In this document: positions 1 to 19,390 of the stretch, piece by piece
Layout: the number at the start of each line of letters is the position of its first letter
Position numbering within the stretch: the first letter of the stretch is position 1
Assembly: GCF_000250735.1 (NCBI RefSeq)
Contig: NZ_AHZV01000364.1
Span: 1 to 64,000, forward strand
Direction of reading: 5' to 3'
Length of the DNA stretch: 64,000 bases
DNA from: Anaerophaga thermohalophila str. Valhall
Lineage (GTDB): Bacteria; Bacteroidota; Bacteroidia; Bacteroidales; Marinilabiliaceae
Notes under the pieces: model-generated
Databases searched by the model: none
What the model was told of the DNA's origin: nothing
Seen by the model: the letters and a program-made list of their open reading frames with translations, nothing else
Position numbers and translations under genes: made by a program

Positions 1-32
1 TCGTAATAGATAATTTATGAATAATGCAGGTT
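1..32 (-). repeat. End of an R3 repeat (truncated by window edge)
   Basis: On the minus strand this matches the first 32 bases of the R3 element at 16108 exactly, beginning AACCTGCATTATTC. Only the terminal part lies in the window, so the rest of the copy would lie to the left. R3 ends are inverted repeats. Confidence 0.6.
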
Positions 33-112
33 ATAATCTTTAGGGCTTTTGCGTGGAAAATTTTATCAGCCGGAACAAAGTAGCATAATCCTCTTTATCC
101 CTTTACTCAAAC

Positions 113-238
113 CTCCTTTAAACTTTTACAAATAACTGGTAATTAATTGTTTGTAAAACTAAAGAGCAAACAGCAACTCTCTAATATTAAAAACTTTGTG
201 TCATTGCGTCTCTGCGTTTAGGCTTTTTAACTTCCTAT
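113..238 (+). repeat. R5 interspersed repeat, uninterrupted copy
   Basis: About 126 bp, running from TTTAAACTTTTACA to a tail containing GCGTCTCTGCGTTTAGGC. Related copies lie at 13252, 20284, 49918 (interrupted) and 55549 (diverged). This copy contains the uninterrupted string CTGGTAATTAATTG, which serves as the empty-site reference for the R1 insertion at 49947. No coding potential is seen. Confidence 0.7.
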
Positions 239-250
239 TATTTACAATAC

Positions 251-353
251 TCCTTTAATTTTTTGCAATACACTGTAAACCAATTGTTTGTGTACAAGAA
301 TGTTCGTTTATTAAAATGCAGTATATCAATGTTATATGAATCATCTTATATCT
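251..353 (+). repeat. R6 interspersed repeat
   Basis: Contains CCAATTGTTTG and AAAATGCAGTATATCAA, shared with copies at 20837 (+) and 1880 (-). The left end resembles the left end of R5. The remainder of 1-502 is AT-rich with no recognised gene; it also holds the tail AAATCTAACGATCTATTG (481-500), which also follows the R6 copy at 20837. Confidence 0.6.
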
Positions 354-502
354 AACAAAACCATAAATCGCTTAAAATATGTCATTTATGCACTTTTGTC
401 AGCTTCTGGAATATGTCAGTACCTCTAAAACATTGCTATTGACTATTGACTAAAAACTACTGACTAAATTACTTATATCTATAAATCTAACGATCTATTG
501 AA

Positions 503-1639
503 TTACTTTTTCGAATTTAATTTCAGGCGTTTTTTAATATTCTTTATAGAAATGGCGTGCTTAGCCGTTCCCTGATCCCCCAGCAAAAAAGCATAAGGCT
601 TCATAGAATCAATATGTGACAAAACAATCCTTGTAATGGCCAGAAAAGGCACAATAAGCAACATTCCGGGAATACCCCAGACAATACTTGCTGCCACCAG
701 TCCGGTGATGATAAAAAAAGGATTGACCCGAACATTACCCCCTACAATGTTGGGCGTTAAGATATTGTTTTCGATAAACTGAATAATAATAAAAAGAATG
801 ACCACTCTGAAAGCCAGCGCCGGATCATTCTCTCCTATCAGTGCAAATAACAAGGGTACAGCACCACCAAGAAGAGTTCCGAAATAAGGAATAAAATTAA
901 ACAGAGCCGAAATAATTCCCAATGCGATTGGGTAACGTAGCCCGATTATCATTAGCCCGGATGAATTAATGATACACAAGATAAAAACAACAGCAAGTAC
1001 ACCTGCCATATACCGTGCAAAAACCCTGGATATCTCTCTAAGTATGGTAATTACTTCCTGACGATGCTCCCGCCCAAAAATCATCATCAAAAAATAAGCA
1101 AACTTAGTTCGGTAATACAAAAACAGAAAAATATAGACCGGAAGCAGACCGAAATTAACAATCGTACTGGTTGTAGCATTAAAAATGTCCTGAACATACT
1201 GACCACCTGATGCCAGCAAATTACCCGCCTGCTCTTTAATCAGGTTTCTTGTCTCCTCCTTGTCGAATCCGAAATGTTCGCTGATTCCGGACACCGAATC
1301 GGCAAGATTCCTCAAACCTGCCTCGGCAAGCCTTGGAAAATCTCCGGCAATCGGTGTAATTTTACTGTAAGCCAAAAGAGCTAAACTAATCAGGATACCA
1401 AGCCCGGTAATAATGGCAATAAAATTGGCCAGTATTCTTGGAATTTTGTGTTTCTCAAGCCAATTAACAACCGGATAAAACAAATATGACAATAAAAAAC
1501 CGAAAGCTATAGGCCATAAGAAATCACGTACAGCAATAAGACCATAAACAAAAAGAATAATCGCCAGTAATGAATAACTGACACGCTGTACCATCAAGTA
1601 TCTTCGTTCCGATCGGTTATATTCTACTCCTGATTTCAT
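503..1639 (-). CDS. AI-2E/PerM-family transporter
   Basis: Polytopic inner-membrane protein of the AI-2E exporter family (PF01594), 378 aa with about eight hydrophobic segments. The conserved FNFIPYFGTLLGG stretch and the later NPFFIITGLV segment are family hallmarks. The family includes putative autoinducer exporters and ion antiporters; the substrate here is unknown. The open frame extends upstream to 1684, but those 15 codons are encoded by the R4 repeat. The ATG at 1639, immediately after R4, is therefore preferred. The next ATG (MVQRVSY) is a less likely alternative. The gene is monocistronic on the minus strand. Confidence 0.85.
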   Translation of the reverse strand: MKSGVEYNRSERRYLMVQRVSYSLLAIILFVYGLIAVRDFLWPIAFGFLLSYLFYPVVNWLEKHKIPRILANFIAIITGLGILISLALLAYSKITPIAGDFPRLAEAGLRNLADSVSGISEHFGFDKEETRNLIKEQAGNLLASGGQYVQDIFNATTSTIVNFGLLPVYIFLFLYYRTKFAYFLMMIFGREHRQEVITILREISRVFARYMAGVLAVVFILCIINSSGLMIIGLRYPIALGIISALFNFIPYFGTLLGGAVPLLFALIGENDPALAFRVVILFIIIQFIENNILTPNIVGGNVRVNPFFIITGLVAASIVWGIPGMLLIVPFLAITRIVLSHIDSMKPYAFLLGDQGTAKHAISIKNIKKRLKLNSKK

Positions 1640-1737
1640 CAGTATAAAAGTTAGTCTAAGATATTGGTCTGATGGAACTCGCATGATTGGGTTTATACAT
1701 GTTCACTTGTAACAAACCTTTGTCATACTTGTTTCAT
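1640..1737 (-). promoter_or_regulatory. R4 leader repeat ending at a start codon (copy a)
   Basis: 98-nt repeat read on the minus strand, from ATGAAACAAGTATG to TATACTG, followed directly by the permease ATG. Positions 1-14 can pair with CATGCGAGTTCCAT at positions 53-66, leaving non-paired purines in the middle of the stem. An inner GGTTT/AAACC stem is also possible. The same arrangement precedes three other genes in the window. The function is not known. Confidence 0.6.
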
Positions 1738-1879
1738 CAACCTGATTGATCTATTTCCGGACAACGAAGTTAGTGAAAGTCTTGAAGGATGTAACTAAAG
1801 GTTACATTGTTTTTTTTCAACAAATAATCTCTATCATTTCTTGATCCATAATAGAATCAATAAATCAGCAGGTCTTTAG

Positions 1880-1987
1880 ATATAAGATGTTAGATGATTT
1901 TTACAACCTTGATATACTGTATTTTAAGAAACAAGCCTGTTTAGATACAAACAATTGGTTTGCAGGTTATTGCAAAAGTTTAATGAA
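1880..1987 (-). repeat. R6 interspersed repeat, reverse copy
   Basis: The minus strand reads TTAAACTTTTGCAATAACC, then CCAATTGTTTG, then ACAGTATATCAAGG, matching the R6 copies at 251 and 20837 with substitutions. It lies in the gap between the divergent permease and miaB genes. The flanking 1738-1879 and 1988-2123 are AT-rich with nothing recognised. Confidence 0.55.
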
Positions 1988-2123
1988 GTATTGAGAATAG
2001 TTGGTTAATTTTTAGGATAAAGGTGACAGACAGAAGTTTAACAGACAGAAGGCAGAAGTAATAAATTTTGCAGAAAAGAATTTTTCAGTTTGTTCCGGAA
2101 ATTTGCGTGATAAGCAAGCATAG

Positions 2124-2268
2124 ATGAGTGCGGTATAAAAAGCATATTTTTGTCAAAATCAAGGCGTTTTAAATTTTTGTACCGGAGTTAACTCGTTGTT
2201 AATGAGGATGCAAAAATTTAAAACAACACAGAGTTTGGCAACAAAGATGCTTTTTAGACCGGGCTCAT
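2124..2268 (-). repeat. R2 palindromic element, 145 bp
   Basis: Terminal inverted repeats of about 22 bp (ATGAGYSCGGTMTAAAAAGC type) and perfect inner arms GTTTTAAATTTTTG / CAAAAATTTAAAAC. It is the same length as, and differs at about five positions from, the copy at 26554, which is in the opposite orientation. It has no ORF. The architecture is that of a MITE or palindromic repeat. Confidence 0.7.
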
Positions 2269-2330
2269 AGATGTTTTAAGATTACTTTATCTGTTTATCC
2301 TTTTTAATTATCTTTGCAGAAACTAACGTA

Positions 2331-2409
2331 GCTGGTTTTCCACATTAAGAATATGAATAAATGCCTGCATGCGAGTTTTATTCGATCTTAATAAATAAAT
2401 TTTATACTA
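2331..2409 (+). repeat. R4 repeat copy c, followed in tandem by copy b
   Basis: Holds the R4 core GCATGCGAGTTTTATTCG and the end TTTTATACTA, but lacks the first 17 positions. The next base starts ATGAAACAAGCATG, the beginning of the next R4 unit, so R4 units sit head to tail here. The ATG at 2410 opens only a 4-codon frame (MKQA), so no gene follows this copy directly. Confidence 0.55.
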
Positions 2410-2483
2410 ATGAAACAAGCATGACAAGGTTTGCCTTAATAGATCATTAGATTTTTAGAGATGTAAGATGAAATGAACATAAA

Positions 2484-2651
2484 TAGTACGTGTCTATAAA
2501 CTCGCAAAAAAATTTTTACAGTATGTGTGTCTGCTCAGAAAGTGCCGGTTGCAAGGCTTGCGAAGCCGCCAAAACCGCAGTTTACTAATCGTAAATAAGT
2601 GTTTTGGCGGCAAGCGTAACACAGCAAATGGGACCTTATGGACAAACACTA
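2484..2651 (-). repeat. R1 palindromic element, copy 1 (B subtype)
   Basis: About 168 bp in reverse orientation: TAGTGTTTGTCCATAAGG outer end, central arms of the CGCCAAAA / TTTTGGCG type, ACTTTCTGAGCAGACAC internal end, and an outer end that is partly complementary to the first. It splits R4 copy b: the GGTTTGCC left of it (2429-2436) and the GGTTTACC right of it (2655) look like a duplicated site. Confidence 0.7.
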
Positions 2652-2654
2652 AAT

Positions 2655-2734
2655 AGGTTTACCACGATAAGAATACGAATAAATGCTTACATGCGAGTTC
2701 CATCAGACCAATAACTTAGACTAATTTTATACTG
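2655..2734 (+). promoter_or_regulatory. R4 leader repeat ending at a start codon (copy b, split by R1)
   Basis: The distal part of an R4 unit, with ACATGCGAGTTCCATCAGAC and TTTTATACTG, directly followed by the miaB ATG at 2735. The proximal arm ATGAAACAAGCATG lies at 2410-2423. The segment between (2437-2654, which includes R1 copy 1) separates the two arms, so the R4 hairpin can no longer form locally. Confidence 0.55.
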
Positions 2735-4114
2735 ATGAAATACCATCTGATAACACTGGGATGCCAGATGAATATTGCCGACAGTGAAAGGGTAAGTGCT
2801 GTGCTGGAAAAAATGGGCTATGAATGGACCGAAAAAGAAGAAGAGGCCAACCTCCTGGGAATGCTGGCCTGCTCAGTACGTCAGAAACCGATAGATAAGG
2901 TCTATAATAAAATAGCCGAATGGAACCGTTGGAAGAACCGGCGCAATCTCATAACATTTATCTCAGGCTGTATATTGCCTGCGGACAAAGAAAAACTACT
3001 GAAACAATTCGACATCATATTTGCCATGAGCGAATTGTCACAGTTGCCCGACATGATCCGAAACTACGGTGTGGTCAACGAAGCTTCGGTGCATATTCCC
3101 GAACTTCGAACACCAGAAAACAAAAATATTGTAGGTCTTTGGGGAATTAAGCCTAAATATCAGTCTACATTCGAAGCATTTGTTCCAATCCAGAATGGTT
3201 GCGACAAATTCTGCACTTTCTGTGCTGTTCCTTATACCCGGGGACGGGAAGTTTCGCGCCCATCGGGCGAAATTATTGATGAAGTGCGCCACCTGGTGAA
3301 TCAAGGCTATAAATCAATTACTTTGCTGGGACAAAATGTTAACTCCTACGGCCTGGATAAAAAAGGAAAAGAAATAGGGTTTGCCGAATTGCTGCGCAGA
3401 ATTGGAGAATTTGGCAATAATTCGGGAAAAAAATTCTGGACATACTTCACCTCTCCGCATCCACAAGATATGAACAGGGAAGTAATTGAAGTAATTGCTC
3501 AATATCCTTGCCTGGCCAAACAAATTCATCTTCCAATGCAAACCGGAGACGATAAAGTATTGATTAAGATGAACCGCAAACACTCCATGGCAAAATACCG
3601 GAAAATAATCAATGACATCCGTGAACTTATTCCACAGGCCACCTTGTTTACTGATATTATCGTCGGTTTTACAGGGGAAGATGAGAAAGCATTTCAAAAC
3701 ACTGTAGCTGCAGTCAATGAATTCAAATTCAATATGGCTTTTATTGCCATGTATTCACCAAGACCGGGAGCTGCCAGCTACAGGTGGGACGACGATGTGC
3801 CACAGGAGGTAAAAAAGGAACGTCACCACAAATTGTCAGAAGTCATGAAACATCACACCAGAGCTTACAATGAAAGCCTGATTGGAAAAACACTGAAAGT
3901 CCTGGTCAACGGGCAGGATCGCAAAACCGGCTTCAGCAAAGGACTTACCGAAGGCAAAATTACTGTGCGGCTCGATCGTTATGTCCCGGATATTACAGGT
4001 AGTATTATAGATGTGAGAATTACTTCAGCTGCTGACATGTCGCTCAGTGGAGAAATTATTAAAAACGTCAGGATTAATCACGAACAACCCGTTGCAAACC
4101 CAATGACAGACTAA
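2735..4114 (+). CDS. miaB: MiaB-type tRNA methylthiotransferase (radical SAM)
   Basis: 459 aa. The UPF0004 domain carries Cys10, Cys46 and Cys79 as ligands of the auxiliary cluster. The radical-SAM motif is Cys156-x3-Cys160-x2-Cys163 in NGCDKFCTFCAVPYTRGR. A TRAM domain follows near the C-terminus. The family 2-methylthiolates i6A37 of tRNA. The first-cluster motif reads LACSVRQ rather than the usual NTCxVRE, and the third region reads SGCILPADK; from memory this resembles MiaB proteins of candidate-phyla bacteria. The gene starts right after an R4 repeat and is followed 18 bp later by a second methylthiotransferase. Confidence 0.85.
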   Translation: MKYHLITLGCQMNIADSERVSAVLEKMGYEWTEKEEEANLLGMLACSVRQKPIDKVYNKIAEWNRWKNRRNLITFISGCILPADKEKLLKQFDIIFAMSELSQLPDMIRNYGVVNEASVHIPELRTPENKNIVGLWGIKPKYQSTFEAFVPIQNGCDKFCTFCAVPYTRGREVSRPSGEIIDEVRHLVNQGYKSITLLGQNVNSYGLDKKGKEIGFAELLRRIGEFGNNSGKKFWTYFTSPHPQDMNREVIEVIAQYPCLAKQIHLPMQTGDDKVLIKMNRKHSMAKYRKIINDIRELIPQATLFTDIIVGFTGEDEKAFQNTVAAVNEFKFNMAFIAMYSPRPGAASYRWDDDVPQEVKKERHHKLSEVMKHHTRAYNESLIGKTLKVLVNGQDRKTGFSKGLTEGKITVRLDRYVPDITGSIIDVRITSAADMSLSGEIIKNVRINHEQPVANPMTD

Positions 4115-4132
4115 AACAACAGAAAAGAATCA

Positions 4133-5518
4133 ATGGAAATCATTACAAACAATAAACTTCATCAGAAAATATCCATGCTCCCCGGAACAGGCCGCAGAGT
4201 AGCATTCAAGACGCTGGGTTGCAGGCTCAATCAATACGAAACGGATGCACTGGCCACCCAGTTCGATCAGGCCGGTTACCAAATTGTTGATTTCAATGAC
4301 CAGGCCGATGTAGTGGTTGTCAACACCTGCACTGTAACTAACAAAAGTGATCAGAAATCGCGCAACCTCATCAATCAGGCAGCCCGAAACAACAAAGGTG
4401 CAGTGGTGGTTGTTACCGGTTGCATGGCAAACAACCATAAGGAACAACTTGAAAGTGAAAAGAAAATAACCTACGTAGTCGAAAATAACCGAAAAGGCAA
4501 TATCAGGGAACTGGTAGATGCCCACCTGCGTGGAGAAATCGTTCATCCATCCGGAATAGCGGGCGACGTATTTCATTACAGCAGTGTGGATAAAAGTCTG
4601 CATACCCGCAGTGCCATTAAAATACAGGACGGCTGCGATAATTACTGTACCTTTTGTATTATTCCCACTGTTAGAGGCCGTGCCGTCAGCCGGCCATTGC
4701 CCCAAATTGTTGAGTATGTTCGTCAAACACTTGACAACGGTTTTAAAGAATTGGTAATAACAGGTGTTAACATAGGCCGGTACCATTGGAAGGACAAAAG
4801 ATTTGAAGACGTAGTTGAAGCCATCCTGGAAATTCCCGGTGATTTCAGAGTACGTATTTCATCTTTGGAACCCGACGGTTTTGGAGACCGTTTTTACGAT
4901 CTCTTTAAACACCCTAAACTTGCTCCTCATCTACACCTTTGCCTGCAAAGCGGATCGGACAAAGTGCTGCTTCGTATGCGCCGGATGTATAGTCTGAAAC
5001 AATTTGCAGACATCCTGGAACGGTTCAGAAGCATTCGCCCCAACTTTAACTTCACTACGGACATGATCGTTGGCTTTCCGGGTGAGACCGATGCCGATTT
5101 CAGGGCCAGCCTGGAAGCTGTACAACGCTTTCAATTCAGCCACGTTCATACTTTCAAATATTCGGTACGCCAGGGAACCCGTGCTGAACGTATGGAAAAC
5201 CAGGTCCCTGAAAAATTGAAGGCCGAACGTTCTGCAATACTCAGAGAATTATCAGAAAAAAATCAAATGAAAATCTATTCGTCGTTCATCGGAAAAACTC
5301 AGCGGGTTCTTATTGAAAAAATCGACAGAAACGGTTTTGCAACCGGATATGGTGAACATTACATTCCATTTCGCTTTTATGCCAGGCAACTCGAAAAAAA
5401 CACCTTTCATAATGTTAGAGCCGTCCGAACAGAAGTTTTCGATGAAAAAGTGAGATTGTTCGGGCAAATTGTTCAGACAAGAAGCAGCAAAGAATTCAAA
5501 TTAGACCGATTACAATAA
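4133..5518 (+). CDS. mtaB: MtaB-type tRNA (t6A37) methylthiotransferase
   Basis: 461 aa, radical-SAM methylthiotransferase. Auxiliary-cluster Cys30 (KTLGCRLNQYETDAL), Cys66 (VVNTCTVT) and Cys97; radical-SAM Cys169, Cys173 and Cys176 in DGCDNYCTFC. The LGCRLNQYETDAL signature is typical of MtaB/e-MtaB, which converts t6A to ms2t6A at position 37 of ANN-decoding tRNAs. About 20 residues precede the usual start, so the true start could be internal, but no better ATG is seen. It forms a pair with the upstream miaB. Its 3' end overlaps the restored end of the GH65 gene on the other strand by 9 bp. Confidence 0.85.
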   Translation: MEIITNNKLHQKISMLPGTGRRVAFKTLGCRLNQYETDALATQFDQAGYQIVDFNDQADVVVVNTCTVTNKSDQKSRNLINQAARNNKGAVVVVTGCMANNHKEQLESEKKITYVVENNRKGNIRELVDAHLRGEIVHPSGIAGDVFHYSSVDKSLHTRSAIKIQDGCDNYCTFCIIPTVRGRAVSRPLPQIVEYVRQTLDNGFKELVITGVNIGRYHWKDKRFEDVVEAILEIPGDFRVRISSLEPDGFGDRFYDLFKHPKLAPHLHLCLQSGSDKVLLRMRRMYSLKQFADILERFRSIRPNFNFTTDMIVGFPGETDADFRASLEAVQRFQFSHVHTFKYSVRQGTRAERMENQVPEKLKAERSAILRELSEKNQMKIYSSFIGKTQRVLIEKIDRNGFATGYGEHYIPFRFYARQLEKNTFHNVRAVRTEVFDEKVRLFGQIVQTRSSKEFKLDRLQ

Positions 5519-7909
5519 AAACTCCTTACAATCGCCTTCACCCAGTTCATAAACTTTATCCACAAAACCAATTTGAATCTGAGGCGAACGCCCCGACTCA
5601 AAGGAGACTTCAACACGTCGCTGAGTAAAGTGCAGCCATATCCAATGACCACGATACCTGATACGCATATTGAATCCTTTAATCTCCCTCGGGAGCCTGG
5701 GGTTCAGCCAAAGTATGCCGCCCCGGATTTCCAGTCCGGTATAGCAACGCTAAATCATATCTACCGTTCCGGCCATGGCTCCAAGGTGAATGCCCTCAGC
5801 CGTTGTTCCGCCCTGAATATCTTCGAAATCGCTTTTGAGCGACTCCTGGAAAATATGATAAGATTCTTCGCGATCGGTACGTGAAAAGACCCAGGAATAA
5901 ACCAGACGGCTTAAAGTAGAGCCATGTGAGCTTCTTTTAATATAATAGTCCACCATATCAGGAATAGTTTCCCTGTTAAACTGATATCCTATGCGGCGGA
6001 ACAAAGATTCAAGCTCGTCGGCCGAAAGCAGATAGAACAACATCAACACATCGGCCTGTTTACTGACTTTGTAACGGTTAGGACTATCCCCTTCGGCTTT
6101 CAATATTCTGTCGAGACGCTGTATATCGCCATATTTCTTACGATACTTTTCAAAATCCAGTTCTTTAAGCTTTTCATATCCTTCGAACTGGCTGATAATT
6201 CCGTTATCCATGAATGGGACAAACATATTTCGACTGATCTCCTCCCAACGTTCAATTTCTTCGTCATCAATCTTAAGGTCGGTAAATAATTCACGTTTGC
6301 GGGTATCCGAAAGCAGATCAATGAAGTCCAGAGCAGTACGCAAGACCCAAACCGCCATCACATTGGTGTAGGCATTATTGCTGAGTCCCGGTTTATCAGA
6401 ATCAGGGTATTGAGTGTGAAATTCATCGGGCCCGACCACTCCATTAATTTCAAATTTTTCCCGTTTTTCGTTGTAGGTTGCCAGGCTCGACCAAAAACGG
6501 GCAATCTCGAACATCATTTCAGAACCATAAGCTGTCAGAAATTCAATATCCCGGGTTGCTTCGTAATACTGATAAATATTAAAAGCAATGGCAACACCCA
6601 CGTGACGCTGAAGGTAGGTGTTATCCGGATCCCACTTCCCGGATTTGGGATTGAGGTGAACCACCTGACTCTCTTCTCTTCCATTGCTCCCGCTCTGCCA
6701 GGGATACATAGCCCCTCTGCACCCTGCTTTCCGGGCTGCTCTCCGGGCTGCCGGAAGACGGTGATAACGATACATCAGTAATGAGCGTGCCAACTCTGGC
6801 AACTGTAGGTTCAAAAAAGGAAAAACAAACAATTCATCCCAGAAAATATGTCCCCGGTATGCTTCTCCATGCCAGCCACGAGCAGGAATCCCCACATCTA
6901 GCCCTATGGTATTATTGGAAGCTGTTTGAAGAATATGAAAAATATGAAGGCGCAAAATCATCTGGGTAGTATCCCCGTCCTTGATATCAATATCGCACCT
7001 GTGCCACAATTCGGCCCAGGCATGAGCATGAGATTCCAGTAGTTCTTCGAACATACCCGCATCCGATAATACATTTCGAGCCTCAAGAACCGGCTCCGTG
7101 ATTGCCCTGTCACGTGAAGAAAAGAAAGAAACAATTTTTTCTATTCTCACTGCTTGCTTTTCATAGCATTGCAAGTCAAAGAGATGAGCTACATAGCCTA
7201 CTTTTTTGAAATATTGCCGCTCAACAAAAATTTCCTTTTCACCGTGATAAGCTCTTGTTCTTGCAGCCTGAACCACCCTGGTTTTAGACTGATTGGCCTG
7301 AACCCTCAAATAAATGCTTTCATCATCAAATTGTCCTATTTCGAGAGGCTGAAGATGCGCTGAACTCAGATCTCTGTATCGCGGTACACCGCTGTTTATG
7401 ACTGTTCCATCCAATGCAGAACGAATCTGAATCTTTCCTGACCAGTTTTCAGGCGTAATTGTCCACTCAATCCCTGCAAAATGTGGATTATTCATATCAA
7501 CAAACCTGCGACTAATCAACGATGTTTCCTTCCCATCTTCTTCCCTGAATTTTAATGTACGTTTGATTACGCCACGATATAAATCAAGCTCTTGCCTGAA
7601 ATGCAATAATTCAACATCATCAATTCTAAACCAGTTGCCATTCTCATGTCTGAAAGTAAGACTCAACCAATTGGGCCAATTCACCAAATCTTCATTCTCA
7701 ACAATACGGCCCGAAACTTCGGAACGTGCCCTGTTGTATCCGCCGGCCAGATAAGTTCCGGGATAATGACAACCACCTGCATCACATTCTTCGGCTGCCC
7801 CGCGTGTAGCGAAATAGCCATTCCCCAAGGTAAACAATGCTTCCCGAAGGGGCTCATGATCGGGAATATAATCCTCGTATATTACTTTCCAAAGGTCGTT
7901 TTGATTCAT
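5510..7909 (-). pseudogene. GH65 glycoside phosphorylase interrupted by an in-frame TAG
   Basis: Family 65 disaccharide phosphorylase (maltose/kojibiose/trehalose phosphorylase type). The first 719 codons hold the N-terminal sandwich and (alpha/alpha)6 barrel, the candidate catalytic acid Glu496 in VGPDEFH, and the phosphate-site motifs SSHGSTLS and DIQGGTTAEGIH. A TAG at 5752-5750 follows GTVDMI. The same frame then stays open for 79 codons (RCYTGLEIRGGILWLNP...) to TAA at 5512-5510, giving the usual C-terminal domain. Relatives have Gln at this spot (from memory), so CAG to TAG is the likely change. TAG ends normal genes nearby, so recoding is unlikely. It could be a real nonsense mutation or a base error. 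The substrate cannot be assigned. Confidence 0.85.
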
Positions 7910-8120
7910 ATCATTATATTTTTAAGCAGAAAGAAAATTTCTTAGCCTGATGGTAAAAAAAATGTACCAAACCCCATGAAATTATAACCTTTTTGTCCGA
8001 TAACGGTTAGTTTTATGTTGTCAAATAAAAAAGGTCATATTTGAAGATTCTTAATTGAGAATATCGAAAAAACGAATCCGATTTTCTTAAAATTAGTAAA
8101 AATTGTTAGGATTCCAATAA

Positions 8121-8128
8121 TATCTTTG
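8121..8128 (+). promoter_or_regulatory. Bacteroidota -7 promoter element for the DUF493 gene
   Basis: TATCTTTG matches the TAnnTTTG consensus, 20 bp upstream of the ATG at 8149. No clear TTTG -33 box is seen. Confidence 0.5.
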
Positions 8129-8148
8129 CACCAAAAGAGTAAATAAAA

Positions 8149-8421
8149 ATGGCAATGAAAGACTACAGAAACCTTAGACGCATACTGGGAGAACAGGAAA
8201 AATGGCCACAATTGTATATGTTCAAATTTATTGTTCCCAACCAGCATGGGAAAGTGGACAGAGTAGTGTCAATGCTGCCGAAGAAAGGAGAATTTTCTTT
8301 TAACCACACGAAAAGCATGCGTCATGTGGCCGTGACTTGCAAAGCGGTAATGAAACACCCTGATGAAGTAATTAAAATAACAGAGGAAATAACAACAATA
8401 GAAGGCGTGATTGACCTGTAG
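8149..8421 (+). CDS. DUF493 (YbeD-like) family protein
   Basis: 90 aa, small cytosolic protein of the DUF493/YbeD family with an ACT-like alpha/beta fold. The FKFIVPNQHGKVDRVVSMLP segment and the closing KITEEITTIEGVIDL fit the family. YbeD-type proteins are often thought to be allosteric regulators; no partner is evident here. It has its own TAnnTTTG promoter and lies divergently from the GH65 gene. Confidence 0.75.
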   Translation: MAMKDYRNLRRILGEQEKWPQLYMFKFIVPNQHGKVDRVVSMLPKKGEFSFNHTKSMRHVAVTCKAVMKHPDEVIKITEEITTIEGVIDL

Positions 8422-8455
8422 ACTCAGGTAGTTTAAAGGAAATTGGCCTTCAACT

Positions 8456-8549
8456 ATGAAACGAGCATGGAAAAGATTGCCATAGCAAGAATATGTATAA
8501 GTTCTTGCATGCGAGTTCCATTCGATCATATTAAACAAATTTTATACGA
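8456..8549 (+). promoter_or_regulatory. R4 leader repeat ending at a start codon (copy d)
   Basis: 94 nt from ATGAAACGAGCATGG to TTTTATACGA, followed directly by the ATG at 8550. The arms ATGAAACGAGCATG and CATGCGAGTTCCAT pair with a tandem G-A/A-G mismatch in the middle. A second perfect stem, GCAAGAA/TTCTTGC, lies in the loop. Confidence 0.6.
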
Positions 8550-9684
8550 ATGAAATACATCTTCATAATAGCTGCTTTTCATGCATTTTTTTTTGCGGCA
8601 TTGTTATTTCTGAAAAAACCAAAACATCTACACGACAAAACACTGACTTACTGGCTAATATATCTTGGGTTATTTGCAGCTGCTTATGCATGGACTTCAA
8701 ATACTCTGTTTCTTCAGAACCACTTTTTCTCCGGATTGCTGGTATCATTATTCATGCTTCACGGACCATTTTTGTATATGTATTTATCCGCTTTAGCTTC
8801 TAAAAAACACAATCTTAAAAAAACGTGATTATCTGCATTTTCTTCCGTTTGTTCTTTTCGTGATGTATTTGCTCATCTCTTTCAAATTCCCGGAGTATTC
8901 CGAGAGAATTAGAATGGATCATGTTTCACATAGCATCAGTCCACCAACATTATTCAGCATTTTTCTTATTCTCACAGCTCTGTCTGGCCCCTTTTATTTT
9001 GTATTGTCTGCCAAATTGTTTAAAAAGTTCGACATCAATATTTTCAATAACTTTTCGTTTTCCGAAAATATAGATCTTGACTGGTTAAGAAAGCTCGTAT
9101 TAATTTTTGGAATAATCTGGTCAGCCTTGATTTTCATTGCTGTCATTCATCATGTGTTTCATCTGTTTTCCATGATTTTTTGCACTGACGGGTTGTTTCT
9201 TTCTTTGTCTCTCTTCATAATTCTTGTAGGATTTTTTGGTCTTAGACAGAAAGCCATCTTCATTAATTACTCCGCCGAAAATCAGGATTTTGTAACAAAA
9301 CCCAAAAAAAGTGTTTCTGGATTGCACCTGAATGAATCGGATATTTCACGGTATACAAAACAAATAAAGAACTATATGAATTCTGAGAAGCCTTACCTTA
9401 ACCCAAACCTTACACTCCCACAACTATCCAACGAATTAAATATTCCAACACACCATCTTTCTAAAGTAATCAATGAAAACTTTGAAATGAACTTCTTTGA
9501 ATTCGTAAACCATTATAGAATTGATGAAGTGAAGAAAAAAATGAGCGAACCTGAAACAAACAGCCTTTCATTACTGGGCATCGCTTATGAAAGTGGTTTT
9601 AACTCTAAATCTGCTTTCAACAGGGTATTTAAAAATATCACCAACATGACACCGAGTGAATTCAAAAAAACAATAGACGCCTAA
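8550..9684 (+). pseudogene. Membrane-anchored AraC-family regulator, frameshifted at an A7 run
   Basis: N-terminal integral-membrane module with about seven hydrophobic segments, followed by an AraC-type double helix-turn-helix at the C-terminus (PTHHLSKVINENFEMNFF ... GIAYESGFNSKSAFNRVFK). The first frame ends in TGA at 8826-8828, just after an A7 run (8817-8823). Removing one A joins it to the second frame through KKRDYLHFLPFVLF and gives 377 aa of normal architecture. Such proteins are thought to sense a signal through the membrane part and bind DNA. The R4 leader abuts the start. This could be homopolymer error, decay or slippage. Confidence 0.75.
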
Positions 9685-9797
9685 CACTCAACTCATCAAC
9701 TACATTCCAAACAACCTTTTTTACAAACAGGCACTAATTATTTCTCACAAAGAGGTCTTACTTTATGAAGTAGGTCGCACAAACTTAAACTCACCTA

Positions 9798-9805
9798 TAC
9801 TTTTG
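9798..9805 (+). promoter_or_regulatory. Bacteroidota -7 promoter element for the DUF6448 gene
   Basis: TACTTTTG matches TAnnTTTG, about 34-40 bp upstream of the start codon of the next gene. Confidence 0.45.
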
Positions 9806-9839
9806 CTTCACAAGAATTATTAAAACCACTTAAAATTTA

Positions 9840-10451
9840 ATGATTATGAATGCAAAAGTAAGAGTTACTAAAAGCCTAAAAATTAAGAGTTTTCTCCCCT
9901 TCTTTGTAATGATTGTTCTGTTAACAGCAGGAACAATACCAGGTTATGCTCATTGCGACTCATTGGATGGACCTGTTATCAAAGATGCAGAAGCAGCACT
10001 GAAAACAAACAACGTCAGTCTGGTGTTTAAATGGATTAATGAAGAACAGGAACAGGAGATTACATCACTATTCAAGAAAACATACGATCTACAGGATGGC
10101 GATCCTGAAATCTATGAACTGGTGAAAAACCATTTTTTTGAAACACTGGTTAGATGGCACCGGGAAACAGAGAATGCCCCTTATACAGGGCTAAAAGCAG
10201 CCGGAACAACAGAAAAAATAATACAGTTGAGTGATAAAGCTATAAAAGATAAAGACATTAACGATCTTATCAACAAGCTTAACAACCACACTGAACAGGT
10301 GATAAAAGACAGATTCGAAAAAGTACTGTTGTTGAATGAAATCAAAAATGAATCTGAACAAAAAGGCAGAAAATTTGTCGAAGCCTATGTGGATTACACA
10401 CATACCATTGAAGCCCTGCATGATGTTTTGGAGCATGGCACATCACATTGA
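9840..10451 (+). CDS. DUF6448 family secreted protein
   Basis: 203 aa from the first ATG; the ATG two codons later (9846) is an equally good start. A basic N-terminus plus hydrophobic segment ending near GYAHC suggests a signal peptide. The mature part begins HCDSLDGPVIKDAEAALKTN, the typical opening of DUF6448 proteins, and is otherwise helical and charged. The molecular role of the family is unknown. It lies 81 bp upstream of a type II NADH dehydrogenase on the same strand. A GATGACAGG/CCTGTCATC inverted repeat sits in the gap. Confidence 0.65.
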   Translation: MIMNAKVRVTKSLKIKSFLPFFVMIVLLTAGTIPGYAHCDSLDGPVIKDAEAALKTNNVSLVFKWINEEQEQEITSLFKKTYDLQDGDPEIYELVKNHFFETLVRWHRETENAPYTGLKAAGTTEKIIQLSDKAIKDKDINDLINKLNNHTEQVIKDRFEKVLLLNEIKNESEQKGRKFVEAYVDYTHTIEALHDVLEHGTSH

Positions 10452-10532
10452 ACAACATGTTTATTTACCTGGATGACAGGCTCTTTGCCTTTTATTCGGT
10501 GAAGTACCTGTCATCTATACTACAAATAAATT

Positions 10533-11837
10533 ATGCATACAAAAGAAACAATTACAAACTCAGACATCAATCATAACAAAAAGCAAGTCATTGTAGTCGG
10601 GGGCGGGTTTGCAGGACTACAGTTGGCAAGAAACCTGGACAAACGATATTTTAATGTGTTGCTGATCGACAAGATCAATCATCATCAGTTTCAGCCCCTT
10701 TTTTACCAGGTGGCTACCTCACAAATAGAACCAGCCAGCATTTCTTTTCCTTTCAGGAATATCTTTAAAGGTCAAAAACACATCCAAATCAGAATGGCAG
10801 AGCTGTTACGGGTGAAGCCCGACCAACAAACCATAACCACAACAACAGGAGATTTTGAATACGATTACCTGATTATTGCCACTGGATGCAAAACCAACTA
10901 TTTTGGAAATCCCAACATCCAAAATAATTCATTTTCATTAAAAACAACTTTTGATTCCATTACCATTCGGAATCATATCCTGCTTACCTTCGAAAAAGTG
11001 ATTGCGGCAAAAAAAGAAGATCGTGAAAGCTTGCTCAATCTCGCCATTGTTGGTGGAGGGCCTACCGGGGTTGAACTTGCAGGCGCTTTCTCGGAAATAA
11101 AAAATGAGATTCTCCCAAAAGATTATCATGATGTGGACTTCTCAACATTCACCATACGTCTGATTGAAGGTAGCGACCGCATTCTGGGAAATATGAGTCC
11201 GCAATCGGGAAAAGCGGCTGCCCGGTACCTAAAAAAAATGGGAGTAATTCTTCAGACCAACACATTTGTGAAAAATTACGATGGAGAAACCATTACTCTT
11301 AGCACGGGAGAAACCATTAAAACAAAAAATGTTATCTGGGCTGCAGGTGTAACAGGAAATCCAATTGAAGGATTGTCAGAAAATGTTTTAGTTCCGGGCA
11401 ACAGAATAAAAGTTGACCGCCAAAACAAAGTTAATAGATTCAGTAACATTTTCGCGGTTGGAGACATTGCCTACATGGAAACCCCAAAATATCCGAAAGG
11501 GCATCCGCAAGTAGCCAATGTAGCCATTAATCAGGCCAGACTATTGGCAAAAAATCTGAAACGAGCATTACTCAACAAACCGTTGAAAGATTATGAATAT
11601 GTAGACCTGGGTTCCATGGCCACTATTGGGAGAAATAAAGCGGTTGTAGACCTCCCATTTATTAAATTCAAAGGATACCCGGCATGGCTGGTTTGGATGT
11701 TCCTGCACCTGATGCTCATTTTGAGCGTCAGAAACCGGCTCATCATTTTTATTAACTGGGCATGGCTTTATATCACCAAGAACACATCGCTTCGGCTGAT
11801 ACTGACCCCCGGCAGAAATACCCGAAACAACCACTAA
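10533..11837 (+). CDS. ndh: Type II NADH dehydrogenase (NDH-2-like flavoprotein)
   Basis: 434 aa NAD(P)/FAD-dependent oxidoreductase. The FAD-binding GGGFAGLQLARNL motif lies near residue 23 and the NAD-binding VGGGPTGVELAGAF motif near residue 173. IFAVGDIAY is the second FAD contact. A hydrophobic C-terminal segment (MFLHLMLILSVRNRLIIFI) would tether it to the membrane. The family passes electrons from NADH to quinone without pumping protons. The last 4 bp overlap the convergent racemase gene. Confidence 0.85.
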   Translation: MHTKETITNSDINHNKKQVIVVGGGFAGLQLARNLDKRYFNVLLIDKINHHQFQPLFYQVATSQIEPASISFPFRNIFKGQKHIQIRMAELLRVKPDQQTITTTTGDFEYDYLIIATGCKTNYFGNPNIQNNSFSLKTTFDSITIRNHILLTFEKVIAAKKEDRESLLNLAIVGGGPTGVELAGAFSEIKNEILPKDYHDVDFSTFTIRLIEGSDRILGNMSPQSGKAAARYLKKMGVILQTNTFVKNYDGETITLSTGETIKTKNVIWAAGVTGNPIEGLSENVLVPGNRIKVDRQNKVNRFSNIFAVGDIAYMETPKYPKGHPQVANVAINQARLLAKNLKRALLNKPLKDYEYVDLGSMATIGRNKAVVDLPFIKFKGYPAWLVWMFLHLMLILSVRNRLIIFINWAWLYITKNTSLRLILTPGRNTRNNH

Positions 11838-12545
11838 ACTATATCAGACTCTTCCCGACAACACCTTACAATTTCATTTATATGAATTTTTGTAGTATTA
11901 AGAACCGGTATGCCGTAATATTCATCATCGGGCAGAATCAATGGCAATTCGGTACAACCCATAATGACACCATCTATTCCATTGGTCTGCTTCATCTCAT
12001 CTATAATCTGAAGGATTCCGTCCCGTGTTTCGTTTTTGAAGATCCCCAGCTCTATTTCTGAGAAAAGTTTTGTATTTAGATACTTTTTTTGAGTTTCACC
12101 GGGAACCGTAATTTCCATCCCCGACTTTTTAAATACATCACTAAAAAATGAGTTATTCATGGTTATACCTGTACCCAACAAGCCGCAATTCTTCAACTTC
12201 AAACGTCTGGCTTCGGAAGCAGTGGCATCAACAATACTAAGCATAGGCACATCAACCCTGCTTTGCAACTCGTCAAAAAACAAATGAGGCGTATTGGCTG
12301 TCAATGCAATAAAGTCGGGACCAGCTTTTTCAACTTTTTTTGAGTTTTTCCGACAGATAATCTACTGCGCCGCGCTCATCACCGGAATTTACCAATCCTA
12401 TGAATCTGGAGAGATTGACGCTGTAAATAATGATATCCGGATAGTTTAAATCGTCACTTTCAGCTTTAAACTTATCAATAATCCCCTGATAATATTCCAC
12501 TGTTGATTCAGGCCCCATTCCACCGATTAATCCAATTTTATTCAT
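11834..12545 (-). pseudogene. Aspartate/glutamate racemase family protein, frameshifted at an A7 run
   Basis: The start is at 12545 (MNKIGLIGGMGPESTVEYY, the family signature). The frame breaks after SEKLKK at an A7 run (about 12335-12341); removing one A continues VEKAGPDFIALTANTPH and gives 236 aa. Candidate catalytic residues are Thr of TANTPH and Cys of MGCTELPLIL, as in the YgeA-type amino-acid racemases, which use Thr/Cys. The racemised amino acid is unknown. As read, the protein is split. It is convergent with the NDH-2 gene. Confidence 0.75.
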
Positions 12546-12590
12546 AATATTCTATTTTTCAGAAGTGTTATAAAACACAACCACGATAAT

Positions 12591-13031
12591 TCATCTTTGT
12601 AACAGCAGACGCCATTTAAAGGCAAGCATTATCAAAGAAAAAACCTTCAACAATTCAAGCAATATGTAGTACAAATGTACTGGTGATTTGGAAACAGAAT
12701 TGCCATCAATAATAGCCATTGCTCTTTCCGAGAGCACCGGCAATAAAACAAAGGTCTGCAAAATCAGCACAAGAATCACTACCCCTGAGAATAATTTCAC
12801 TTCTCTGTTCAAATCGCCAAATTGCTGAATAACTATAAGCAAATAACCGAAAACCAGAACCCATTCAAGCAAATTGAGCGCCCGAAAAACTTTCATTCCG
12901 ATACCAAGCCCTATTGACAGAGTAACCCCAGGAGCCTGGAACTTGAGCCATGCTTCCATAAAACTTATGGAACTAACAGCCCCGGCCCAAAACACCAATA
13001 TTATTACAGCAAAAAAAGCAGATAATCTCAT
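12591..13031 (-). CDS. Small integral membrane protein, unknown
   Basis: 146 aa with four predicted membrane segments. There is a weak resemblance to TMEM205-like/DUF4149 proteins around the ALNLLEWVL segment, which I would not rely on. The open frame extends to 13046, but the first five codons (MNFIL) are R4 repeat sequence. The ATG at 13031, directly after R4, is preferred. It lies 45 bp upstream of the racemase on the same strand, so co-transcription is possible. Confidence 0.6.
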   Translation of the reverse strand: MRLSAFFAVIILVFWAGAVSSISFMEAWLKFQAPGVTLSIGLGIGMKVFRALNLLEWVLVFGYLLIVIQQFGDLNREVKLFSGVVILVLILQTFVLLPVLSERAMAIIDGNSVSKSPVHLYYILLELLKVFSLIMLAFKWRLLLQR

Positions 13032-13128
13032 CAGTATAAAATTCATCTAAGTTATTGGTCTGATGGAACTCGCATGATTGAAGGTTATACATGTTCTTTA
13101 GTGACAAACCTTGCCATGCTCGTTTCAT
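13032..13128 (-). promoter_or_regulatory. R4 leader repeat ending at a start codon (copy e)
   Basis: 97 nt on the minus strand from ATGAAACGAGCATGG to TTTTATACTG, then the ATG of the membrane-protein gene. The outer arms pair around a tandem G-A mismatch. The inner AAGGTT/AACCTT stem corresponds to GGTTT/AAACC in copy a, a compensatory difference. Confidence 0.65.
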
Positions 13129-13251
13129 TTAGAAATACTTTTTATTTCAGCACAAAAATAAAAAGACCATTAATAAAGGACAATTTTATCCTTTATTTTT
13201 TACTATTTGTTTTTCATATTTGTTTTTCACACCCTCCTCTAAATCAATACA

Positions 13252-13380
13252 CCGTTAACCTTTTACAGATGTATGGTGATTAATTGTTTACGCAATTAAT
13301 GACACAAGCCGCAACTCTCTCATAATAAAAATTTTGCGTCATTATATCTCTGTGTTTAGGCTTTTTTTAACTGACTATTG
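13252..13380 (+). repeat. R5 interspersed repeat
   Basis: About 129 bp from CCGTTAACCTTTTACAGATG to TAACTGACTATTG, same layout as the copies at 113, 20284 and 49918. The rest of the 13129-13251 gap is AT-rich with no recognised content. Confidence 0.65.
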
Positions 13381-13493
13381 CTAAATTTAAAGAAATCGAA
13401 AAAGCAGGGGTCATTTCAAGAAGTGTTATCCAACAATTTACAAAACCAAGTTGTTATGATGGAATAAAAGATGGTTCTATATTCAGAAGATAG
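13381..13493 (+). other. Possible 3' remnant of a coding sequence
   Basis: Directly after the R5 end, one frame stays open for 36 codons with normal-looking composition (KFKEIEKAGVISRSV ... YDGIKDGSIFRR) and stops at TAG 13491-13493. There is no start, and the frame continues into the repeat. I do not recognise the sequence. It may be the tail of a gene truncated at the R5 boundary, or chance. Confidence 0.25.
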
Positions 13494-13537
13494 ATGCCAG
13501 ACTATTGATGCCAATTTCACCAAATAAAAAATAAACT

Positions 13538-15216
13538 ATGAGCAACCAACTGAACAAATACAGCCGTCTAATAACGCAGGACGAAAGTCTGCCGGCAGCT
13601 CAGGCGATGCTTTATGCCATCGGAATGAATGAAGATGACCGAAAAAAGCCCAGGTAGGCATCGTGAGTACCGGCTTCCAGGGAAACCCCTGTAACATGCA
13701 TTTGAACGATATTGCCGCATTAGTAAAGAAAGAAGTCGACCGGCAGAAAAATCTTTACGGTCTCATTTTTCACACCATAGGGGTAAGCGATGGCATTACC
13801 AACGGAACTGAAGGCATGAAGTATTCACTTCCGTCGAGAGAGCTTATTGCAGACTCCATCGAAACCGTAGTCAGTGCCCAATTCTATGATGCTGTCATCC
13901 CCATTGTGGGTTGCGACAAAAACATGCCCGGGGCCATGATTGCGCTGGGCAGGCTCAATCGTCCAGCCATTCTAATGTATGGCGGAACAGTAAAGAAAGG
14001 ACACTGGAAAAATAAAGACCTGAACATTGTATCGGCCTTTGAAGCCTATGGAGAAAAGCTGCGTGGAAACATTTCCGAATTCGACTATAAAGGTATTATT
14101 AAACACAGCATCCCCGGTGCCGGCGCTTGCGGAGGAATGTACACCGCCAACTCAATGGCCGCTGCAATAGAATGCATGGGAATGAGCCTGCCATTTACAT
14201 CATCCAACCCGGCCGTTAGTCAACAAAAAAGAGATGAAGCCCACACCATCGCTTCAGCTATAAAAACAGTGCTTGAGAAAGACATCAAACCACGGGACAT
14301 AATGACGAGCAAAGCTTTCGAAAACGCTATCACCCTCATTATGGCACTCGGTGGTTCTACCAATGCAGTGATGCATCTTATCGCCATGGCTAAATCGGTA
14401 GATGTCCCCCTTACTATAGACGATTTCCAGAAAATCAGCAATAAAACACCATACCTTGCTGATCTTAAACCAAGCGGCACCTTTCTCATGGAAGACTTGC
14501 ATAACATTGGCGGTATTCCTTCGGTTATGAAATTTTTGCTCAAAGAAGGTTTTTTAGACGGCAACCCTATGACAGTTACCGGCAAAACAGTCGGAGAAAA
14601 TCTTGAAGGTGTTCCAGATTTGAAAAAGGGACAGAAAATTATTTTTCCGGTCAGCAAACCCATCAAAACAAGCGGACATATTCAAATTCTTTATGGCAAT
14701 CTGGCCACCGAAGGAGCCGTTGCCAAGATCACCGGTAAAGAAGGCGATTACTTCAATGGTCCTGCCCGTGTATTTGAGGATGAAAAATCGGCCATTGAAG
14801 GGATTCGCTCCGAGGTAAAGCCTGGCGAAGTCATCGTTATCCGCAACAGTGGCCCCAAAGGTGCACCGGGAATGCCCGAGATGCTCAAGCCGACAGGAGC
14901 CGTCATGGGAGCAGGTCTGGGAAAAGATGTGGCACTCATCACCGATGGTCGCTTTTCTGGTGGCTCGCATGGATTTGTGGTCGGACACATCACCCCCGAA
15001 GCCTATAGCGGCGGACTAATAGGCTTGCTTAAAAACGGAGACATCATTACCATTGACATCAATAAAAATTTGATTGAAGCCAAGCTGAGTAAAGAAGAAA
15101 TTGAGATGCGTAAAAAATCATGGAACGGCCCAGTCCAAAACCCTGCAACAGGTATTCTCAAAAAATTCAGAGAACAGGTATCATCTGCTTCCGAAGGTTG
15201 CGTAACCGATGGTTAA
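13538..15216 (+). pseudogene. ilvD: Dihydroxy-acid dehydratase, frameshifted near the N-terminus at an A6 run
   Basis: IlvD/Edd family Fe-S dehydratase that makes 2-keto acids in branched-chain amino-acid synthesis. The ATG at 13538 opens [14 protein letters not shown] and reads 37 codons to NEDDRKK. An A6 run (13642-13647) then shifts the frame into a stop (TAG). One extra A continues [19 protein letters not shown] and yields 559 aa, the normal length. Cluster-ligand Cys are seen in [17 protein letters not shown] and GAGACGGMY. From 13663 onward the frame is intact for 517 codons. No other ilv genes are nearby. Because only one base is missing, the gene may be functional in the organism. Confidence 0.85.
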
Positions 15217-15248
15217 AAATATAATCAAACACCAACATTATCATTAAT

Positions 15249-15264
15249 TAGTGTCTGTCCATAA
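15249..15264 (+). repeat. R1 end fragment
   Basis: TAGTGTCTGTCCATAA is the outer end of R1 and nothing else of the element follows. It stops immediately before the stop codon of the DUF4870 gene (15267-15265). Confidence 0.5.
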
Positions 15265-15627
15265 TTACTTGATTAGCCTGAGGTTGAACGGGTACCGGTA
15301 GGAACGCCCTTCATTGGTTTCCATAATAGCCTTTATCACAAAAATGATGGTCAGAATTACAATTGCAATTAAAAGCGGAATACCAATTAAAACGACGCTC
15401 AGTAGTCCGGCAATCATGGCAGCAATCGCCACAGTGATCTGGAAATTCAGAGATTCTTTTCCTTCCTGATCAACAAAAGGATACTCATCTTTCTTTATTG
15501 CCCAGATGATCAGTGGTCCAATTACATTCCCAAACGGGATTATTAACCCGGCAAATGCTGCCAGATGGCAATACATCCCCCAGTTTTTTTCATCTGGAGT
15601 CATGGTTGGATAAATTTCATTTTGCAT
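15265..15627 (-). CDS. DUF4870 domain-containing membrane protein
   Basis: 120 aa. The conserved WGMYCHLAAFAGLIIPFGN opening and the DQEGKESLNFQITV motif are diagnostic for DUF4870, a family with three membrane segments and no proven function. The C-terminus ends YRYPFNLRLIK, also typical. It stands alone, convergent with ilvD. Confidence 0.85.
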   Translation of the reverse strand: MQNEIYPTMTPDEKNWGMYCHLAAFAGLIIPFGNVIGPLIIWAIKKDEYPFVDQEGKESLNFQITVAIAAMIAGLLSVVLIGIPLLIAIVILTIIFVIKAIMETNEGRSYRYPFNLRLIK

Positions 15628-15771
15628 AATCGATTCACTTTATCATCTTATTAAATCTGTTTTAGACGGCAGCTCATTTTATGGGATATTCCAAATCCCC
15701 CTGTAAAATTATTATCTTTTTCTGACAAGTAAATAATAATTACGTCAGATTATTAGATTTTTAAATATAAG

Positions 15772-15937
15772 TAGTGTTTGTCCATATAGTACCATCTGCT
15801 GTGTTACGCTTGCCGCCAAAATACTCATTTACGAAAAGTAAACTGCGTTTTTGGCGACTTCGCAAGCCTTGCAACCGGCACTTTCTGAACAGACACAAAT
15901 ATTGTGAAAATTTTTGCGAGTTTATAGACGAGCACTA
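15772..15937 (+). repeat. R1 palindromic element, copy 2 (B subtype)
   Basis: About 166 bp: outer end TAGTGTTTGTCCATA, central arms CGCCAAAA / TTTTGGCG around a TACTCATTTACG hairpin, GCTTGC paired with GCAAGC, internal end ACTTTCTGAACAGACAC, and outer end TTATAGACGAGCACTA. No ORF. Confidence 0.7.
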
Positions 15938-15939
15938 AG

Positions 15940-15986
15940 TAGTGCCTGTCTGTAAAGTAGGAAAGGTTTCCTGCTTATCATGTGTA
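15940..15986 (+). repeat. R1 outer-arm fragment with AGTAGGAAA/TTTCCTGCTT hairpin
   Basis: TAGTGCCTGTCTGTAAAG followed by a short hairpin equals the outer arm of the R1 copies at 20506 and 49947. It begins 2 bp after copy 2. Downstream, 16028-16070 carries a reverse fragment of the R5/R6 left end. The rest of 15628-16107 is AT-rich with nothing recognised. Confidence 0.45.
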
Positions 15987-16107
15987 AGGAAAATATTGTA
16001 AGCCCCCCTTTCTGTCCCATAAAAAATTAATTACCAGTAACGTGCAAAAGTTTAACGAACTATTATAATAATCAATAAATTTTAAAGAAAAACACTAACT
16101 TTGTTTT

Positions 16108-16285
16108 AACCTGCATTATTCATAAATTATCTATTACGATGCTCAACTATCGGTAAAACACAAGCGTCCTCATCAAATTTGATTTGAAAATAGTTCACTA
16201 TTTCCTGCATCAAATTTGTCTGCGGTTGCTTGCGGTTTTTGATATTTGAACATCTCATGACGAAAACTTATGAATAAAGCAGGTT
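16108..16285 (+). repeat. R3 palindromic element, about 178 bp
   Basis: Inverted ends AACCTGCATTATTCATAA / TTATGAATAAAGCAGGTT, with an internal GAAAATAG/CTATTTC hairpin and repeated CATCAAATTTG. Solo ends of the same family lie at 1-32 and 54342-54375. No ORF. Confidence 0.6.
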
Positions 16286-16457
16286 AAAGAAACGAGAATA
16301 TCAAAAATTACCATAAAGATTATCAGATTTTTAGATACAAGATTTAAGATGTAGTGAAACGAACCCCGATTACTCCCCTATAAATCGGGGCAGGCAGGGA
16401 CAAATTTCATTTTACCAATAAATTAGACATATTTCATACTGCTGAAAACCCAAATTA

Positions 16458-17576: not shown

Positions 17577-17640
17577 TCAGATTTTCAGGATGTAAGATTC
17601 ATCTTAGTTCTTATATCTAAATATCTTTGATAAAATAACA

Positions 17641-19331: not shown

Positions 19332-19390
19332 AAAAATTCAAGAGTTTATCAAACAGTCACGAAACATCAAAAAATTCCTGCAAATGACCA

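Follow-up and report, generated by a model that had tools for sequence, protein, structure and literature searches.

R4, a short non-coding repeat of Bacteroidota, is probably a mobile element that inserts at ATGAA and rebuilds start codons

The window, a stretch of 64,000 nucleotides from the draft genome of Anaerophaga thermohalophila str. Valhall (G000; 4.54 Mb in 371 contigs; other G numbers denote other genomes and L numbers sequence stretches), carries units of a repeat termed R4 (Table 1). Four R4 copies lie where the initial annotation had placed them, and each is followed immediately by the ATG of an open reading frame (ORF) of the same sense. The unit at the permease gene is common to G001, but the G001 copy belongs to another subtype. 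In an ortholog comparison, the sequence upstream of the miaB-like gene in G023 differs and lacks R4, and no R4 was found upstream of the orthologs of the small membrane protein gene in G032, G023 and G018; this protein has no Pfam match. The gene behind the third copy had been called an AraC-type regulator. An AraC HTH domain is indeed present, but the ORF that directly adjoins the unit encodes only 92 aa and lies in another frame; it is seemingly the first part of a frameshifted regulator that continues in the AraC HTH ORF, and the region 8550-9684 thus looks like one gene split into two frames by a frameshift, a sequencing error or pseudogene formation. The two complete head-to-tail units reported at 2331-2436 turn out to be one 5'-eroded unit followed by a fragment, which another repeat continues; true tandem pairs and triplets of R4 are present elsewhere in this genome.

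Table 1. R4 units and adjoining genes in the window
Feature	Position	Strand	Evidence and remarks
AI-2E family permease gene	503-1639	-	PF01594, E 6e-54; start codon adjoins R4 unit 1635-1737
R4 unit, GAAAC...CTGAT	1635-1737	-	nhmmer/CM match, E 1.6e-14; adjoins ATG at 1639-1637
Degenerate, 5'-eroded R4 unit	2319-2410	+	E 2.1e-14 for 2319-2414; no long ORF behind
5' fragment (first ~31 nt) of a further R4 unit	2411-2441	+	E 0.01; head to tail with unit 2319-2410
5'-truncated R4 unit (without first ~15 nt)	2654-2734	+	BLAST and nhmmer/CM; directly upstream of miaB-like gene
miaB-like radical SAM gene (UPF0004/radical SAM)	2735-4114	+	PF00919 and PF04055
R4 unit with CATTCG/CGAATG version of stem P2	8456-8549	+	E 1.6e-16
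92-aa ORF starting at R4 unit 8456-8549	8550-8828	+	seemingly first part of a frameshifted regulator
AraC HTH ORF, other frame than 8550-8828	8860-9684	+	Pfam
Small membrane protein gene starting at R4 unit 13032-13128	12591-13031	-	
Full-length R4 unit	13032-13128	-	E 6.2e-17
Weak remnant, 3' half of R4 unit, ending in CTGCTGAA, ATG lost	16380-16446	+	E 0.0011

Other repeats also occur in the window. A second interspersed repeat, TTAATTGTTTGT...GCAGTATATCAAGGTTGTAC GAATCATCTTATATCTAAAAATCTAACGATCTATTG, has many copies, including those at 108-154, 245-291, 1885-2004 and 13245-13291; at least 16 cases of an R4 unit nested inside it are seen, and a copy of this second repeat lies near the RAYT transposase gene of this genome (L191). 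A third repeat of about 150 nt (2120-2270) is matched by many G001 copies at up to 98% identity, i.e. it appears to be very recent or strongly homogenised. The fourth is an inverted pair (2508-2689 and 15734-15915) with many copies in G001, G023 and G032.

An R4 unit is non-coding, about 75-120 nt long, and consists of GAAACGAG, a stem-loop of variable length and sequence, CGAGTTCCATNNG, an A/T-rich segment of 20-30 nt and a terminal CNNAT; the consensus in this genome reads (AT)GAAACGAGCATG..GGTTTGCCACAA..AGAAYATGTATAAATGCTTGCATGCGAGTTCCATCAGACCAATAACTTAGACTAATTTTATACTGAT(GAA). In stem P1, AAC-GA-GCATG pairs with CATGC-GA-GTT around tandem G-A mismatches. This is the pairing of ATGAAACGAGCATG with CATGCGAGTTCCAT that the initial annotation had correctly recognised, while overlooking the second stem, P2, in which CATNNG pairs with CNNATG (CATCAG in the 5' arm, and in the 3' arm a CTGATG that contains the ATG of the gene). 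The description of R4 as structured is borne out by strong covariation. Specifically, P2 is paired in 98.5% of the cells of a phylum-wide alignment, where one position shows four Watson-Crick pair types and its neighbour three, and double-changed cells number 37 against 11.2. Perfect NNG/CNN complements are found in 87 of 116 cases, whereas shuffling yields 18.9 on average and never more than 36 in 2000 rounds; as a guard against circularity, the 3' arm was placed in this count solely by the first ATGA 20-44 nt after NNG. Both stems are also supported when the units of this genome are aligned by themselves. Additionally, P1 is kept while its sequence changes: short units keep GAAACGAG and CGAGTTCC but enclose inner stems of the TCCCGAA/TTCGGGA type, distant units have GAAATGAG..GCGAATTCC with GAAAC..GTTCC changed to GAAAT..ATTCC, a C-G to T-A exchange in P1, the P1 of G290 has GC/GC in place of the tandem G-A mismatches, and that of L362 is fully paired (AAACCTGCTTT/AAAGCAGGTT). 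The DNA folds similarly on both strands, and wobble pairs point to neither strand. The internal GTTCCAT has two mutually exclusive pairings that are visible in the sequence.

R4 is abundant in this genome and patchily distributed in the phylum. One window copy used as a BLAST query gives 42 matches in this genome, and a covariance model built from 35 units (R1) detects at least 150 copies with E-values from 1.9e-20 to 2.1e-9; the same model matches 30 of the 61 genomes in a sample of relatives. The core pattern ATGAAACGAGCATG N{34,50} CGAGTTCCATNNG matches at least 113 stretches of GTDB genomes, and among the matches listed are Marinilabilia, Anaerophaga, Thermophagus, Sunxiuqinia, Draconibacterium, Labilibacter, Parabacteroides, Odoribacter, Paludibacter, Dysgonamonadaceae and Cytophagales MAGs. 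A second covariance model built across genera (R2) finds R4 in 22 of 247 evenly drawn Bacteroidota genomes, at 1 to at least 17 copies each, and the same architecture recurs in at least seven families. No R4 match was obtained in plasmids and phages, and no published description was found in the open-licence literature, by sequence or keyword. On a 4.6-kb IMG/VR contig (L341), an R4 unit at 512-582 lies ahead of a small membrane protein gene; by eye, the proteins of this contig look like those of Mu-like transposable phages.

R4 sits before GAA, most often inside ATGAA, and ATGAA then stands at both ends of the unit. Paralogous sites inside another interspersed repeat are either empty, reading ...ACGAATCATCTT, or filled, reading TTGTAC|GAAACGAG...ATACTGAT|GAATTATCTT, and the right end of filled nested sites also reads ...ACTGAT|GAATTATCTT; the unit therefore extends from GAAACGAG to CNNAT and is placed before GAA. 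The final AT of the unit and the G of the target form ATG, by which the start codon is rebuilt. An ATGAA target would lead one to expect just what had been noted earlier, namely that the gene's ATG takes the place where a next unit would start. Among orthologous sites, L059:4095-4143 is matched in G032 (L159) by agttcaATGAAAAAG without a unit, with ATGAAAAAG as start codon, and a site filled in G005 (L193:9849) is free of the unit in G000 and G001, where it is the start codon of a gene that looks TrkA-like by eye. A further unit, at L074:6151 of G000, has its empty counterpart at L192:12850 of G001, where the ATGAAA target ATGAAAGAAGTTGAATAA lies near the 3' end of an ORF and is not a start. 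These comparisons reveal no loss of target bases, with GAA or ATGAA at both junctions. Between L074:16117 and G001 L192:3580, the right-hand junction matches and the sequence further upstream differs; in several of the comparisons extra unmatched sequence lies to the left of the unit, so that the right junction alone is precise there. The left flank of first units has AT before GAAAC in 65 of 95 cases and AC in 17, mostly of the nested class. One split copy (L013:5264-5485) contains just about 130 nt of unrelated sequence. Furthermore, G000 and G001 differ in R4 subtype and unit number at the starts of orthologous genes, which points to fast turnover. The proposal of a mobile or duplicated 5' leader is upheld by units that are almost identical while the genes behind them are unrelated, by relatives with empty sites and by the turnover at orthologous sites, although movement is something we infer from presence and absence.

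Start codons are occupied far more often than the target predicts. In this genome, where counts come from about 550 kb of stretches chosen around R4 copies plus the model search, terminal non-nested units were compared with control ATGAA sites that have non-coding upstream DNA: 56 of 105 units adjoin the start of an ORF that encodes 60 aa or more, while the control sites do so in 83 of 449 cases (odds ratio 5.0, p = 2.5e-12). In a wider set, the proportions are 36 of 56 for units and 186 of 732 for control sites (odds ratio 5.3, p = 5e-9). Of the 20 readable units in the distant set found by the model, 15 stand at the start of an ORF of more than 100 aa, and some of the N-termini resemble metG, kdpB, bamD or rdgB (names given by eye). 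The Pfam families behind the units of this genome comprise AI-2E permease, UPF0004/radical SAM, PAPS_reduct, DXP reductoisomerase, His_biosynth, ATP-grasp_2 (SucC-like) and biotin carboxylase. The genes led by R4 in this genome, dozens in number, are thus functionally unrelated (miaB-like, dxr, hisA, sucC-like, permease, AraC, pyruvate carboxylase-like). The link to start codons is largely explained by the ATGAA target, yet it stands at about five-fold odds above that expectation. Copies at genes and away from genes are equally recent (median nearest-neighbour identity 0.931 and 0.928), and therefore a slow loss of non-genic copies fails to explain the excess. Because the youngest copies (18 of 30 at genes) show it as strongly as the old ones, the excess probably arises from a landing preference or very early selection. 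The initial annotation had let the link to gene starts depend on a start-codon tendency and on covariation among copies; both are present, and the link is not refuted.

Taken together, these findings make it probable that R4 is a short non-coding, non-autonomous mobile element specific for ATGAA. The earlier observation is real and was understated, and we have good confidence in a mobile, target-specific element. An R4 unit inserted at a start-codon ATGAA keeps the reading frame whole and forms the final ~100 nt of the 5' leader, and its own ATGAAAC at the beginning would offer a fresh landing site, from which head-to-tail arrays would result. GTTCCAT can pair with any of three partners, namely the upstream ATGAAAC of its own unit, the ATGAA that lies downstream and the ATGAA of a new target, and we propose with moderate confidence that the target may be picked by base pairing with this internal sequence, as by the guide sequences of IS200/IS605 elements. 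That a folded single strand is moved by an enzyme encoded elsewhere is a weaker suggestion, and a guided single-strand step is plausible but stays somewhat on the doubtful side. More speculative is the broad picture of a phylum-wide class of elements moved by a putative enzyme, whose internal guide reads ATGAA by pairing and which insert there, rebuild the ATG within their own stem and rewire dozens of leaders per genome. Neither a transposase, recombinase or cargo gene inside or consistently beside R4 units nor an autonomous element with a gene between R4 halves was found in the sequences examined. Counting against our explanation, a selfish element that follows the ATGAA target only should have ~19-25% of its copies at starts, whereas 53-64% are observed.

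The usual mobile elements damage genes or land between them. The target of R4 is also a very common start-codon context of the A/T-rich genes of Bacteroidota, so its insertion spares the protein and replaces the leader. If the units affect expression, each such genome would hold dozens of natural leader swaps before core genes, among them dxr, hisA and the sucC-like gene. A gene for the mobilising enzyme should be common to the R4-positive genomes, patchily distributed as they are.

The start-codon excess is also what a mobile cis-regulatory leader would show, one that is kept at gene starts for a promoter, a translation-initiation region or an RNA switch. This reading is compatible with a mobile ATGAA-specific element, and we consider it a possible but rather unlikely account. 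The five-fold odds, the start codon inside the covarying stem P2, the A/T-rich segment just before the ATG and the persistence of the architecture across the phylum speak for it, as do the two mutually exclusive pairings of GTTCCAT; in its switch version, to which we likewise give no great weight, GTTCCAT would pair either with the ATGAAAC of its own unit or with the start codon of the gene. On the other hand, the genes are unrelated and hence give no hint of a common ligand or regulon, roughly half of this genome's copies lie away from genes and look equally young, non-genic copies have the same 3' end, and the ATGAA rule also holds at sites that are not starts. A regulatory role of R4, as judged from such sequence features, is possible.

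Less probable by far is the identification of R4 as the REP of a RAYT (TnpA-REP, HUH Y1) transposase of the Bacteroidota subclasses of Quentin et al. 2018 (PMC6006769). Y1 transposases would be the first enzymes to suspect of mobilising R4. High copy number, a hairpin with a guide-like foot and mobilisation in trans all fit, as do the "atypical secondary structures" by which Bacteroidota RAYTs are flanked (PMC6006769), and on the gene-opposite strand the order target, linker, guide, hairpin equals that of an IS200/IS605 left end. An R4-like unit is also found inside RAYT genes of G002: on L183, a unit with a CAGAA/TTCTG stem lies at 2154-2246 and again at 4867-4959, near the N-terminal end of two RAYT genes, and in the second gene the frame is open across at least part of the unit. 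However, a search for Y1 in the 61 relatives and 36 other R4 genomes, with inspection of RAYT flanks, did not support this identity. The repeats at the RAYT genes inspected are different ones, GTAG...CTAC and CGAAGTC...GACTTCG, and the R4 consensus lacks a GTAG-type tetranucleotide 5' of the hairpin, at its foot. R4 is not near 35 other Y1 loci, with the exception of one R4-dense contig, a few chance-like neighbours and the R4 relatives inside the G002 RAYT genes. Moreover, R4 occurs without a Y1 match in G008 (98% complete), G016 (95%), G015 (76%), G065, G068, G084 and G094, some of which are incomplete assemblies; the R4 genomes without Y1 include 4 of the 36 assemblies picked for R4. The RAYT gene of this genome (L191, 3100-4500; 187 aa, NHVH ... 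YIHNNP) has palindromes on its flanks, GTAGTC..GACTAC and CGAAGTC..GACTTCG, which are probably its own REPs. A weak Y1 transposase domain lies at G000:C335:6010-6288 (L147) within a 1399-aa open frame, and similar large Y1-containing frames occur in G001, G006, G023 and others.

It is very improbable that R4 is a vertically inherited riboswitch or structured leader that is repeated in appearance only. Such an RNA would account for the covarying secondary structure and its phylum-wide conservation, but units are alike within a genome while orthologous genes elsewhere lack them, and the empty sites, when tested, refute it. In addition, units are nested in other repeats and also lie away from genes, the functions of the downstream genes are not coherent, and no known Rfam family was matched, either overlapping R4 in window 1-20000 (E<=5) or at 17 R4 loci from other genera. 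Chance or ordinary segmental duplication, for which nothing but the repeat-rich genome speaks, can practically be dismissed in view of model E-values down to 1.9e-20, the start-codon excess (p = 2.5e-12) and the precise junctions, which refuted it when tested.

Several known systems share traits with R4. A hammerhead-ribozyme core (CTGATGA...GAAAC) was rejected because CTGATG varies as a base-paired arm, and so was an integron attC site, for which AAC/GTT is present but the unit boundaries appear to miss the attC crossover. In putative mobile promoters, one upstream sequence is reused before non-homologous genes. R4 likewise places one upstream sequence before non-homologous genes; unlike them, it stops precisely at the ATG and shows both a definite target for insertion and a structure of its own, and promoter activity is putative. 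The MITEs of Bacteroidota, such as those described in Porphyromonas gingivalis (PMC4596501), are short non-coding mobile repeats of the same phylum. R4 differs from them in having neither terminal inverted repeats of the DDE type nor a target duplication; its ends are direct (GAA/ATGAA), and its symmetry is that of the P1/P2 hairpin pair.

REP/REPIN sequences resemble R4 as hundreds of short hairpin units that are mostly intergenic, apparently moved in trans and present in patchy, lineage-specific variants. R4 departs from them with its 95-105 nt and two stems, its landing at start codons, a core that is recognisable across families and the missing GTAG foot; the RAYT genes inspected here are flanked by REPs other than R4.

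In IS200/IS605 elements, the cleavage site is paired by a guide that lies at the foot of the hairpin (PMC6006769). R4 differs from them in its target, ATGAA (TTCAT), and in having one shared guide beside one hairpin instead of two; no autonomous copy was found, and no R4-Y1 linkage was seen, with several R4 genomes lacking Y1 genes (gaps in drafts or MAGs are possible). Like them, R4 has a subterminal hairpin and an internal sequence complementary to the target or cleavage site, is bordered by the target on one side and by its equivalent on the opposite side, keeps a fixed orientation to the target, forms head-to-tail junctions and inserts beside a fixed short target without base loss. On the gene-opposite strand, the order is TTCAT target, 25-nt linker, ATGGAAC, hairpin and GTTTCAT. 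There, ATGGAAC at the foot of P1 pairs with TTCAT, with NNG/CNN as a covarying extension, and by analogy with the IS200/IS605 guides it may be a putative guide for the target.
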